From the NCBI RefSeq assembly GCF_020614395.1, contig NZ_CP085324.1, positions 1,059,564 to 1,123,563 of the forward strand: a DNA stretch of 64,000 nt. The letters are read 5' to 3'. The notes beneath the pieces are model-generated. The model searched no databases. It was not told the DNA's origin and saw only the letters and a list, made by a program, of their open reading frames with translations. Shown here piece by piece: positions 36,291 through 40,793 of the stretch. The stretch is from Salarchaeum japonicum. Lineage in GTDB: Archaea; Halobacteriota; Halobacteria; Halobacteriales; Halobacteriaceae. How positions within the stretch are numbered: the first letter of the stretch is position 1; the number at the start of each line of letters is the position of its first letter. The position numbers and the translations under genes were made by a program.

Positions 36291-36505
36291 CACCCGGACG
36301 TACCCGAGACGGGGGTAAATACTCTACTATTACAACTATATAGTAGAATATACATCGTGGTATATCCGCTCTATTCGGGCGCGGTTTCGGACGGTGTATC
36401 GCGATATATGTGGGTTGTACGGGCCGCTAAGGCGATATCGGGGCGCACACGAACCATCAATATATAGACCGAAGATAATTTATTGTGTAGCGCGTAGCGG
36501 TGGGT
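36291..36505. promoter_or_regulatory. Divergent pstS / AbrB-PhoU control region
   Basis: This AT-rich 215-base gap stands out in a G+C-rich window. For pstS, TATTTA on the minus strand (36316-36321) is about 28 bases before the ATG; just upstream is a perfect 8-base inverted repeat TCTACTAT/ATAGTAGA (36323-36330 and 36340-36347). For the AbrB-PhoU gene, ATAATTTATT lies about 27 bases before the ATG. Two further palindromes are TATCGCGATA (36397-36406) and CGATATCG (36433-36440). These are good candidates for phosphate-dependent operator sites. Confidence 0.65.
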
Positions 36506-37510
36506 ATGGAACGACGGAAGGTGCAGGTGACGGGCGGGTCGACGTTCACGGTCTCCATCCCCAAGGACTGGGCGCGCGAGAACGACATCGAAGCCGGCGA
36601 CGAGATGGTGTTCCACGAGGACGGCCGGAGCCTCCTCGTCCAACCGGTCGGGAGCGAAGACCCCGTCCGGGGGACGTTCGACATCAGCGGCCTCGACGGC
36701 GACCACCTGATGCGAACCGTGATGACGATGTACGTCTCCGGGTTCGACGTCCTCGAACTCGAATCCGACCGCATCACCGCCGACCAGCGCCGCGTCATCC
36801 GGAACGCCACCCAGAGCCTCGTCGGCCTCGAAGTCCTCGAAGAGACCGGCGACCGCGTCGTCATCCAGGACCTCCTCGATTCGAGCGAACTCTCCATCCA
36901 CAACGCCGTCCGCCGCATGCGCCTCATCTCCACGTCGATGCTGGACGACGCCGTCACCGCCATCGTCGAGAACGACGACGACCTCGCGCGGGACGTGACC
37001 GAACGCGACGACGACGTCGACCGCCTCTGGTTCGTCGTCTCCCGCATCTTCCGCGGCGCGCTCCGCTCCCCCGAAGCCGCCACCGAAATCGGCGTCTCCC
37101 GCGAAGTCTGCTTCGACTACCATTCGAGCGCGCGCCAGCTCGAACGCATCGCCGACCACGCGACCAAGATGGCGAACGTCGCGCTCGACATGGACGAGGA
37201 CATCCCGGAGGAAGTCGCCGACGCGCTCGACGAACTCCACGAGGAAGCAATCGGCATCGTGGACGTGGCGATGGACGCGCTCGTCACCGACGACACCGGC
37301 GAAGCCACCGACCTCGCGAACGAAGCGCGCGAACGCATCCCCCACATCGACGACCTCACGCGCGCCGTGGACGAACACCTCCGCGACCTCGACCCCCGGA
37401 ACGCACAACAGCTCAGCCTCGTCGTGGACTCCCTCTCCCGGTGCGCCGACTACGGCGGGAACATCGCGGAAACCGCACTCCAGAAAGCAGCGCCCACGCC
37501 GGGCGTTTAG
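36506..37510 (+). CDS. AbrB-PhoU fusion, phosphate uptake regulator
   Basis: 334 residues from the ATG at 36506. Residues 1-46 form a SpoVT/AbrB DNA-binding domain (RRKVQVTGGSTFTVSIPKDW, then IEAGDEMVFHEDG). A PhoU-like helical domain follows, with SARQLERIADHATKMANVAL and SLSRCADYGGNIAETAL holding metal-binding residues. In haloarchaea such fusions are proposed regulators of pst genes. Its divergent arrangement opposite pstS supports autoregulation and control of the operon. It overlaps by four bases with the ferredoxin gene stop. Confidence 0.93.
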   Translation: MERRKVQVTGGSTFTVSIPKDWARENDIEAGDEMVFHEDGRSLLVQPVGSEDPVRGTFDISGLDGDHLMRTVMTMYVSGFDVLELESDRITADQRRVIRNATQSLVGLEVLEETGDRVVIQDLLDSSELSIHNAVRRMRLISTSMLDDAVTAIVENDDDLARDVTERDDDVDRLWFVVSRIFRGALRSPEAATEIGVSREVCFDYHSSARQLERIADHATKMANVALDMDEDIPEEVADALDELHEEAIGIVDVAMDALVTDDTGEATDLANEARERIPHIDDLTRAVDEHLRDLDPRNAQQLSLVVDSLSRCADYGGNIAETALQKAAPTPGV

Positions 37511-37839
37511 TCGTCGCCCGCCGTCACCGGCCCGCTCGGCTCCGGCGCTTCCTCCTCGATGCTCGGCGGGTACTGCCCGCGGTCGAGCACGAGGTCGGAC
37601 TGCGGGCGCGCCATGCACGTCAGCGCGTACTCCTCCGCCTCCTCCTCGGTGAACCCGCGCGCGGCGGGCTGTGCGACCTCGCCCTCGATAATCTTCGCCG
37701 AGCACGCCAGGCACATCCCGACCCGACACGAGTACTCCTGCGCGATACCCTCACGGAAACACGCCTTCAAGATGGTCTCCTTCTCGGAGACCTCGATGGT
37801 CTCGTCGCGGCCGGCGAACTCGACCGTGTACGTCGTCAT
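37507..37839 (-). CDS. 2Fe-2S plant-type ferredoxin
   Basis: 110 residues. The cluster ligands are Cys38, Cys43, Cys46 (SCRVGMCLACSAKI) and Cys75 (LTCMARPQ), the plant-type pattern C-x4-C-x2-C-x28-C. It lacks the extra N-terminal domain of the abundant 129-residue haloarchaeal ferredoxin, and has an acidic, Pro-rich tail instead. It is a one-electron carrier in the cytosol. It is divergent from a geranylgeranyl-reductase-family gene through a mirror-symmetric promoter, which suggests it is that enzyme's electron donor. Confidence 0.95.
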   Translation of the reverse strand: MTTYTVEFAGRDETIEVSEKETILKACFREGIAQEYSCRVGMCLACSAKIIEGEVAQPAARGFTEEEAEEYALTCMARPQSDLVLDRGQYPPSIEEEAPEPSGPVTAGDD

Positions 37840-37948
37840 ACACCCTCGTTCTGCGACGACGGGTAAAACTCTTTATTCCGCGGTGTCCCCGCGCAGGCGA
37901 CGGATTAAGGAGTAAAGAGTTTTCCCGCCCGCCTTCAATCGGGCGAGT
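37840..37948. promoter_or_regulatory. Mirror-symmetric divergent promoter, ferredoxin / geranylgeranyl reductase
   Basis: AAAACTCTTTA at 37865-37875 and its exact reverse complement TAAAGAGTTTT at 37913-37923 face each other across 37 bases. Each is separated from its own start codon (37839 and 37949) by exactly 25 bases. Thus both genes carry the same TATA-region sequence at the same distance and should be expressed in step. Both transcripts would be nearly leaderless. Confidence 0.8.
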
Positions 37949-39319
37949 ATGACTACCCACGAGTACGACGCGGTCGTCGTCGGAGCCGGCACCTCCGGCT
38001 GTTACGCCGCCGCGACGATAGCGCAGGCGGGCTACGAGGTCGCTATCGTCGAGCGGAAGACCGAGCAGGAGGCCGGTCACATCGCGTGCGGGGACGCCCT
38101 CAAGGGCGCGGCGAACTTCCCGGACGCCATCCCGAAGTCGAAACTCGAACCCGCCATCACCAACACCGAGGTCGACCACGGCCGCTTCGAGATTCCCCAG
38201 GAGGACACCGTCCTCGAAATCCCCGTTCCCGGCGAACTCGCGGTCGTGGACCGCTGGAAGTACGGCCAGTGCGTCATCGGCGGCGCGGAAGACCGCGGCG
38301 TGGACTTCCACTACAACGTCGTCGTCACCGACGTGCTCCAGGACGACGACGGCACCGTTACTGGCGTCCGCGGGAAGCACAAGGGCGACGTTCACCAGTT
38401 CGACGCCGACATCGTCGTGGACGGCGCGGGGTCGCTCAGCGTCCTCCAGGACAACGCGGACTTCGACGGCACGCACTTCGACACGAACGTCAACTACAGC
38501 CAGTTCTGTAGCGGCTACCGCGAAATCGTCGAGGTCGAGGAGGAAGTCGAGTGGAAGGACGCGCTCGTCTTCAAGCCGACCAAGCGCGCCGCCGGCTACC
38601 TCTGGTACTTCCCGCGCACCGGCACCGAAATCAACGCCGGCCTCGGCTTCCAGATGACCGAGGAGCCGATGCAGATGATAGACGACCTCAAACGCGACCT
38701 CCGGAACCGCCCCGAGTTCGCGGGCGCGACGGTCAAGGACAAACTCGGCGCGGCGCTCCCCACCCGACGGCCCTACGACTCCGCCGTCGCGAACGGCTTC
38801 ATCGCCGTCGGCGACGCCGCCGGCCTCGTCAACCCCACCACCGGCGGCGGCATCGCCGGCGCGGCCTACTCCGGGAAGTACGCGGGCGAACAAGCTATCA
38901 CGGCCATCGAGGAAGGCGACGTGAGCGAGGAGAACCTCTGGCGGTACAACGAACGCGTCATGGATCACTTCGGCGCGCGCTACGCCGGCCTCGACGTCTA
39001 CAACATCCTCTCCACCGCCGTGGACGTGGACAACCTCATGGGCCTCCTCGCCAGCCTCCCCATGGGTAAACTCAGCGAAGCCATCTACGCCGGGAGCGCC
39101 GAACTCAGCCTCGGCGTCAAGGTGCAGACCGCCATCAAGAGCTTCGGGAACTGGGGCACCATCTACAACCTCTACCAGACCAAGAACCAGGCCGACCGCC
39201 TCCTCGACCACTACGAGTCCTACCCCGACAGCCCTCACGCCCTCGACACCTGGCAAGACCGCCGCGACGACATCATGACCGACGTGTACGACGTCACCGG
39301 CGCAGACCCCAAGTACTGA
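37949..39319 (+). CDS. Geranylgeranyl reductase-family flavoprotein
   Basis: 456 residues. The FAD motif YDAVVVGAGTSGCYAAATIA is followed by AIVERKTEQEAGHIACGD, then VVDGAGSLSVLQ. LWYFPRTGTEINAGLGF resembles the YxWxFP motif of the family, and the second FAD region is FIAVGDAAGLVNPTTGGGIAGA. In archaea, members saturate the isoprenoid chains of archaeol lipids or of quinones at the membrane. The neighbouring ferredoxin probably supplies the electrons. The C-terminal 60 residues are extra compared with short family members. Substrate is inferred only. Confidence 0.92.
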   Translation: MTTHEYDAVVVGAGTSGCYAAATIAQAGYEVAIVERKTEQEAGHIACGDALKGAANFPDAIPKSKLEPAITNTEVDHGRFEIPQEDTVLEIPVPGELAVVDRWKYGQCVIGGAEDRGVDFHYNVVVTDVLQDDDGTVTGVRGKHKGDVHQFDADIVVDGAGSLSVLQDNADFDGTHFDTNVNYSQFCSGYREIVEVEEEVEWKDALVFKPTKRAAGYLWYFPRTGTEINAGLGFQMTEEPMQMIDDLKRDLRNRPEFAGATVKDKLGAALPTRRPYDSAVANGFIAVGDAAGLVNPTTGGGIAGAAYSGKYAGEQAITAIEEGDVSEENLWRYNERVMDHFGARYAGLDVYNILSTAVDVDNLMGLLASLPMGKLSEAIYAGSAELSLGVKVQTAIKSFGNWGTIYNLYQTKNQADRLLDHYESYPDSPHALDTWQDRRDDIMTDVYDVTGADPKY

Positions 39320-39512: not shown

Positions 39513-40793
39513 CTACGGCTCGTTCTCCGCGATGGAGAGAATCGAGTCCGCGAGCACGTCGATACCGATGGGGATGCTGGCTTCGTCCACGTCGAACGTC
39601 GCGGTGTGGTGGCCGCCGGGGTGGTCGGTGCCGACCGCGAGGTAGCACGCGAGGCCGCCGTTGTCCTGGACCTCCTGCATCAGGAAGGTCGCGTCCTCGC
39701 TCCCGCCGAGCTTGTCGCTCTCGACGGGGCTGTCCACGCCGTCGGTCGCGCTCGCCACGTCGTAGACGATGTCCGCGAGCGCGCGGTCGCTCGCGGCGCT
39801 CGGCGCTTCCCCCTCGGTGTGGATGTCCACGTCCACGTCGTGCATCTCGGCCGCGCTCCGGAGCACGCGGTGCGCGTGGTCTTTCATGTAGTCCTTGAGC
39901 TCCGTCGTCTCGCCCCGGACTTCGCCCTCGACGAAGGACTCCTCGGGGATGACGTTCGTCGCGGTGCCGCCGCCGACGAGCCCGGCGTTCACGCGGGTCT
40001 CTCCCTCCGAGTGCCGGGGGATGCCGTAGAGGTTCTGGATGGCCGCCGCCATCGCCTGCACGGTGTTCCGGCCCGCCTCGGGTTTCGCGCCGGCGTGCGC
40101 GGGTTCCCCTTCGTACTCCGCGAGGAAGTGCGACACCGCGAGGAAGCCGTCGATGCCCGCGACGACCTCGCCCGTCGGGTGGTCGAGGCCGACGTGCACG
40201 GCGAGCAGGTAGTCCACGTCGTCGAGGTGGCCGGAGCGCGCCATCGCGCGCCCGCCGCCGACGCGCTCCTCTGCCGGCTGGAAGAACACCTTGAACGTGC
40301 CCTCGAAGTCGCTCTCCTTGACGCGTTCGAGCACGCCGATGCCGAACGTCGCGTGCGCGTCGTGGCCGCAGGCGTGCATCGCGCCCTCGTTCTCCGAGCG
40401 GAAGCCCTCGCGGGCGGGGACGTGGTCGTCGTCGTCGGACTCCGCCTGCGGGAGGCCGTCGATGTCCACGCGCAGGCCGACCGTCGGGCCCTCGCCCGTC
40501 CGGAGCACGGCGACCGCGCCCGTGAAGCCGCCGCGGAGGTCTTCGAGCACGTCGGGGTCTGCGCCCGCGTCGAGCGCGCGGTCGTACCAGTCGTCCAGCA
40601 CGTCGTCGTCCGGGACGGCCATCCGTTCGTCCGTGTTCAGCGCGTCCGGGCCGACGTGGAGTTCGTCCACGCCGATGCGCTCGACTTCCTCGACGATGCG
40701 CGCGGTCGTGTAGAACTCGCGCCACGCGGGTTCCGGGTGCCGGTGGAGGTCGCGTCGGAGCGCCACGAGGCGGTCGTGCGTCGATTTGCTCAT
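39513..40793 (-). CDS. M20-family metal-dependent amidohydrolase
   Basis: 426 residues. Family landmarks are LRRDLHRHPEPAWREFYT at the start, GLRVDIDGLP, the metal ligands in HACGHDAHATFGIGV, the catalytic/metal Glu pair in FFQPAEERVGGG, and later VGTDHPGGHHTATFDVDE. This arrangement is typical of the aminoacylase/IAA-amide and AbgB-type hydrolases, which split N-acyl amino acids in the cytosol. An NhaC transporter gene starts 110 bases away, divergently; the two may be unrelated. Confidence 0.93.
   Translation of the reverse strand: MSKSTHDRLVALRRDLHRHPEPAWREFYTTARIVEEVERIGVDELHVGPDALNTDERMAVPDDDVLDDWYDRALDAGADPDVLEDLRGGFTGAVAVLRTGEGPTVGLRVDIDGLPQAESDDDDHVPAREGFRSENEGAMHACGHDAHATFGIGVLERVKESDFEGTFKVFFQPAEERVGGGRAMARSGHLDDVDYLLAVHVGLDHPTGEVVAGIDGFLAVSHFLAEYEGEPAHAGAKPEAGRNTVQAMAAAIQNLYGIPRHSEGETRVNAGLVGGGTATNVIPEESFVEGEVRGETTELKDYMKDHAHRVLRSAAEMHDVDVDIHTEGEAPSAASDRALADIVYDVASATDGVDSPVESDKLGGSEDATFLMQEVQDNGGLACYLAVGTDHPGGHHTATFDVDEASIPIGIDVLADSILSIAENEP

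Follow-up and report, generated by a model that had tools for sequence, protein, structure and literature searches.

The window (the whole 64,000-nucleotide stretch of Salarchaeum japonicum DNA that was analysed) contains a ferredoxin gene and a gene of the geranylgeranyl reductase (GGR) family, whose enzymes saturate membrane isoprenoids. The two genes are oriented divergently across an intergenic gap of 109 bp; they and the elements between them are as follows.

37507..37839, minus strand: plant-type [2Fe-2S] ferredoxin of 110 aa, with the motif CX4CX2CX28C (C37, C42, C45 and C74), assigned on the basis of PF00111
37840..37864, minus strand: start-proximal promoter region of the ferredoxin gene (25 nt), with AA at -11/-10 and T at -1; positions -13..-10 and -1 are kept in 78 relatives
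37865..37875, minus strand: core promoter element of the ferredoxin gene, TAAAGAGTTTT, with the BRE AAA at -35..-33 and the TATA-like TTTT at -29..-26; the exact 11-mer is present in 43 of 78 relatives
37884..37902, no strand: 19-bp palindrome TGTCCCCGCGCAGGCGACG of the form TGTC-N11-GACR, a putative operator; 8 bp separate it from the ferredoxin core and 10 bp from that of the GGR gene
37913..37923, plus strand: core promoter element of the GGR-family gene, TAAAGAGTTTT; AAAGAGTTTT or AAAACGTTTT is present 24-26 nt from the ATG in 62 of 80 relatives
37924..37948, plus strand: start-proximal promoter region of the GGR-family gene (25 nt), with AT at -11/-10 and T at -1
37949..39319, plus strand: GGR-superfamily flavoprotein of 456 aa, of the Sulfolobus type (clade A), with Cys47 and the YxWxFP motif, assigned on the basis of TIGR02032, the PDB and an AlphaFold model

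The ferredoxin scored 51.7 bits against PF00111 (Fer2; cut-off 21), and the four cysteine residues at positions 37, 42, 45 and 74 are nearly invariant in the alignment of its relatives. Its scores against the TIGR02008 subfamily (56.7 bits; cut-off 81) and the main haloarchaeal ferredoxin family, NF041393 (51 bits; cut-off 150), were below the cut-offs. The main ferredoxin (HVO_2995/OE_4217R; PDB 1doi and 1e0z) has the same plant-type 2Fe-2S fold, but it serves as the 2-oxoacid ferredoxin, has a longer N terminus and is encoded by a separate gene elsewhere. The dedicated 2Fe-2S ferredoxin proposed in a preliminary description of this locus is thus distinct from the main ferredoxin.

The score of the enzyme against the geranylgeranyl reductase superfamily model TIGR02032 was 229.9 bits (cut-off 158.8). 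It was below the cut-offs of the DGGGPL reductase equivalog NF041080 (249.5 bits; cut-off 580), the haloarchaeal lipid GGR NF041385 (63 bits; cut-off 700), the menaquinone reductase MenJ NF045655 (48 bits; cut-off 700) and Pfam GGR_cat; a different gene scores 786 against NF041385. Residues 5-445 were aligned, practically over the full length, with Sulfolobus acidocaldarius GGR (SaGGR; PDB 4opt/3atq) at an E value of 3e-41 and about 25% identity. Cys47, the essential catalytic residue of SaGGR, and the cavity motif Y217-x-W219-x-F221-P222 are invariant in the alignment of relatives; the leading P of PxxYxWxFP is absent. In the AlphaFold model (pLDDT 78.8), the three-domain fold of SaGGR including the helical C-terminal domain is predicted, and the best structural matches were 4opu to 3atq (TM 0.78). 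SaGGR has no nearby ferredoxin gene, according to a 2024 review on GGR paralogues (PMC10821996). The preliminary description is to be corrected in that the enzyme is not the annotated lipid GGR; it is a different, universal paralogue of the Sulfolobus type.

The annotated lipid GGR (NF041385, the haloarchaeal digeranylgeranylglycerophospholipid reductase) belongs to the same superfamily and occurs in the same organisms, as a separate paralogue (G000:C1:998520-999746). This protein and its relatives lack Cys47 and the FP of YxWxFP. It is missing in 9 of 39 genomes, eight of which have two Sulfolobus-type copies each at E < 1e-60. In the six of these eight that were examined (G001, G007, G002, G014, G022 and G036; with G019, also without NF041385), one copy belongs to clade A and the other to clade B. 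In the ninth genome (G021), copy B is full, while copy A is truncated, lies at a contig end and adjoins the ferredoxin gene. Copy B and the window enzyme share 54-57% identity. Since an adjoining ferredoxin was seen beside neither the NF041385 gene nor copy B, both were ruled out as its partner; the ferredoxin linkage is specific to clade A. It should be added that no clade match was obtained by sequence for the GGR knocked out in H. volcanii. In the 2024 review, the SaGGR-like paralogue of this species is Hvo_1396, distinct from the deleted GGR (PMC10821996). The haloarchaeal enzymes HlGGR, HsGGR and Hv1GGR (52-53 kDa with tag), which were not obtained in quantity for assay (PMC6309074), are probably of this Sulfolobus type, judging from their size.

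The ferredoxin and the clade A enzyme are both present in 294 of 294 haloarchaeal genomes from 78 genera, and the ferredoxin orthologue was found in 33 of 33 Halobacteria as compared with none of 164 other Halobacteriota. When GTDB genomes were searched, 80 loci were obtained, or 79 once a near-duplicate was removed. The ferredoxin gene lies within 4 kb of the reductase gene, in the divergent orientation, in 58 of the 79 loci (PhoU in 3 and PstS in 2). All 19 named genomes without an adjacent ferredoxin gene encode it elsewhere, with 68-79% identity, and the separated genes are mostly 17-90 kb apart in the subset for which both coordinates were available. In five genomes (G061, G099, G017, G019 and G101) the genes are about 17-26 kb apart in opposite orientation, with the promoter element at one or both of them, which suggests that an ancestral divergent pair was split. 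In one strain of Natronorubrum bangense, the chromosome and a plasmid each carry the pair with the same intergenic region.

An M20-family amidohydrolase gene (window 39513-40793, minus strand) is convergent to the reductase gene and is near it in 52 of the 79 loci, almost the frequency of the ferredoxin; no functional link between this amidohydrolase and the reductase is evident. Given such a neighbour, adjacency by itself is weak evidence. In the neighbourhoods of the relatives, no menaquinone or lipid genes recur beside the pair; the M20 peptidase alone recurs. The region 36500-37510 of the window (plus strand) encodes a protein in which a PhoU domain is combined with a DNA-binding domain of the MazE/AbrB type at the N terminus. 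It lies beside a pst phosphate transporter operon and may be a direct phosphate regulator.

Between the two genes, AAAACTCTTTA occupies 37865-37875 on the plus strand, and its exact reverse complement occupies 37913-37923. The window contains no other copy (shuffled sequences gave an expectation of 0), and the inverted 11-bp arms are perfect, with 37 bp between them. The spacers, 37840-37864 and 37924-37948, are exactly 25 nt each, up to the ATG at 37839 (minus strand) and the ATG at 37949 (plus strand). These coordinates and distances confirm that both genes carry the same core-promoter sequence at the same position. Haloarchaeal leaderless promoters consist of a TTWT box, a BRE and a WW element (Babski et al. 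2016, PMC4983044), and both genes have a BRE and a TTWT-type TATA box at the default distance from the ATG and a WW near -10. By this likeness, the transcript would be expected to start at the ATG for this pair too. However, the BRE region is AAAGAG here and CGAAA there, and the exact sequence here is private to the pair.

The whole 2.34-Mb genome was reassembled from pieces, 2176 genes were called in a run seeded with known genes, and 1355 upstream regions were profiled. The AT content of these regions peaks at -34/-33, -29..-26, -11/-10 and -1. Since the peaks fall at the same BRE/TATA positions, the 25-nt spacing is the default of leaderless genes; in other words, the equal distance noted in the preliminary description is exact at both genes and nothing special. 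TAAAGAGTTTT, and even the shorter AAAGAGTTTT, has only two occurrences in the 2.34 Mb, both strands included, precisely at these two genes. An identical 11-mer at -36..-26 is shared by 16 of 917,335 promoter pairs of this genome (1.7e-5). Among 325 divergent promoter pairs, the ferredoxin-GGR pair alone shows an 11/11 match, with the runner-up at 9/11. The upstream regions of nuoA, of the complex I operon, have a class-wide core promoter, ATCAAC-N2-TTATA, in contrast with TAAAGAGTTTT.

A class-wide search for AAAGAGTTTT-N24-26-ATG gave matches in 234 of 294 genomes, usually at one or two sites per genome, and the reversed control gave very few. Those matches which could be checked against gene positions corresponded to the ferredoxin or the GGR of the pair in 76 of 79 cases; at the level of genera, the element was found in 62 of 78. 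In genomes with separated genes, 13 of 19 ferredoxin genes and 19 of 21 reductase genes retain AAAGAGTTTT or the variant AAAACGTTTT 24-26 nt from the ATG; the counts on the reductase side, here and in the list above, are somewhat favourable because start codons there were partly picked with the motif in view. In the upstream alignment of relatives, the information content is limited to -37..-25 and -13..-10 (ferredoxin), plus -1. The gene pair and its promoter elements are conserved across Halobacteria, also after separation of the two genes. The mirror image itself, exact in the window, is rarely kept: identical 11-mers are on both sides in only 5 of 59 adjacent loci, and the reductase side has AAAACGTTTT in many Natrialbales. 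The conserved feature is the AAA-N2-GTTTT element belonging to each gene.

The preliminary description was incomplete in that it overlooked the central palindrome. In the alignment of twelve intergenic regions, a comparison it had proposed, three blocks are conserved: the ferredoxin core, the palindrome and the reductase core. The general pattern of the palindrome, located between the two promoters, is [TC]GTC-N11-GAC[AG]. When all spacings of [TC]GTC-N-GAC were scanned, enrichment was observed at N11 only, and the N11 form is present in 28 of 78 ferredoxin upstream regions (0.6 expected) and 17 of 80 reductase upstream regions (0.8 expected); the strict pattern detects it in a minority of loci only. 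The distance from the palindrome to the ferredoxin core is mostly 8-10 bp among the relatives. Furthermore, the palindrome is present at seven separated genes, at a distance of 9-11 bp from the core, where about 0.04 would be expected; both genes of Haloprofundus marisrubri are among the seven. PWM matches elsewhere in the S. japonicum genome, at the nuoA operon and the NF041385 GGR promoter, were conserved at neither site in 30 relatives each. These matches were treated as chance for this reason, and a palindrome regulon including them was set aside. A dimeric regulator would be the natural reading of such a palindrome.

Several explanations other than a functional pair have to be weighed. 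The perfect arms, 37 bp apart in the window, might be regarded as a single operator, in the form of a long inverted repeat or hairpin whose two arms would be bound together. This reading was rejected because the spacing varies widely in relatives, with intergenic gaps from 60 to >1500 bp, and because each arm persists alone in separated genes; we give it hardly any weight. Coincidence would agree with the default spacing, and so would an ordinary leaderless promoter that was duplicated locally in inverted orientation, but this explanation is very improbable in view of the few promoter pairs with an 11/11 match and the recurrence of the element throughout the class, nearly always at these two genes. 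Even in distant relatives, the element is conserved at both genes.

Shared expression without electron transfer deserves more attention, even if we consider it rather doubtful. Two constitutive housekeeping genes might need the same TBP/TFB pair and therefore keep the same core promoter, while the ferredoxin serves other partners. The position of the element exactly at the general BRE/TATA site and its fit to the haloarchaeal TTWT box (PMC4983044) are consistent with this, as are the class-wide core promoters kept by other core genes such as nuoA and the nearly equal conservation of the M20 peptidase nearby. However, the 11-mer is private to two genes and not common to housekeeping genes, the palindrome is common to both genes also when they are separated, and the adjoining gene encodes a GGR of a type dependent on a low-potential donor. 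The flavoprotein might also be some other oxidoreductase of the GGR/FixC superfamily, for example of the ferredoxin-quinone type, paired with its ferredoxin and not reducing prenyl chains. Its scores below the NF041080, NF041385, MenJ and Pfam GGR_cat cut-offs would fit this, and the haloarchaeal candidates tried earlier yielded no assay (PMC6309074). The retention of Cys47, of YxWxFP and, in the predicted model, of the full SaGGR fold with its C-terminal domain makes this alternative unlikely.

The explanation we favour, and consider reasonably likely, is a co-regulated, dedicated donor-reductase pair behind a compact bidirectional promoter. The ferredoxin is probably the GGR-family enzyme's own electron donor, because these universal neighbour genes share a promoter sequence used nowhere else in the genome. 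The 109-bp gap would act as the bidirectional promoter, with one leaderless-type core per gene, and a dimeric transcription factor on the palindrome might set the expression of both genes together. The plant-type ferredoxin would pass electrons to the FAD of the Sulfolobus-type enzyme, which in turn would hydrogenate isoprenoid double bonds through Cys47. The best candidates for its substrate seem to be menaquinone at its terminal prenyl unit, with MK-8(VIII-H2) as the product, the α-isoprene of dolichol phosphate, and archaeol chains. Against the donor-pair reading are the low frequency of mirror identity, the detection of the palindrome in a minority of loci, the poor conservation of its other matches in the genome, the M20 gene as an equally frequent kind of neighbour with no evident link, and the score of the enzyme below the NF041080 cut-off; in addition, the main ferredoxin could be an alternative donor.

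The nearest precedent is the GGR of Methanosarcina acetivorans, which works in Escherichia coli with the neighbouring ferredoxin (Isobe et al. 2014, reviewed in PMC9385802). In both cases a GGR-family enzyme is encoded beside a ferredoxin, and the neighbourhood is likewise conserved here (the 58 loci above). In M. acetivorans, however, the ferredoxin gene is downstream of the GGR gene, whereas here a plant-type 2Fe-2S ferredoxin gene is divergent and shares a bidirectional promoter. Electron transfer in the M. acetivorans pair is backed by activity in E. coli; in the haloarchaeal pair it is predicted. GGR-ferredoxin pairs are thus already known. In the survey of their synteny, Halobacteriales were the exception, in which synteny was reported absent (PMC9385802); the pair is found here nonetheless. 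The consulted parts of the 2024 review do not report the pair of this ferredoxin and the clade A enzyme (PMC10821996).

In the H. volcanii GGR knock-out, the α unit of dolichol phosphate is still partly saturated, as described in the same review (PMC10821996), and haloarchaea typically contain MK-8(VIII-H2) (PMC3035229; PMC5437934). There is therefore room for a further reductase, for which the universal clade A gene is a good candidate, with menaquinone and dolichol phosphate as candidate substrates on an equal footing. More tentatively, the two genes might have formed a private regulon ever since the class arose, one that has a promoter sequence and a palindrome-binding regulator to itself and couples the dedicated plant-type ferredoxin to the universal Sulfolobus-type prenyl reductase for an unassigned saturation, such as one yielding MK-8(VIII-H2) or α-saturated dolichol phosphate. 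Most archaeal geranylgeranyl reductases lack a known electron donor, and this pair offers concrete candidates for both donor and enzyme. Every sampled haloarchaeon has the ferredoxin and the Sulfolobus-type GGR, tied together by gene order, promoter sequence and the palindrome. In a host open to genetic work, they are candidates for a saturation step, as yet unassigned, on menaquinone, dolichol phosphate or archaeol.
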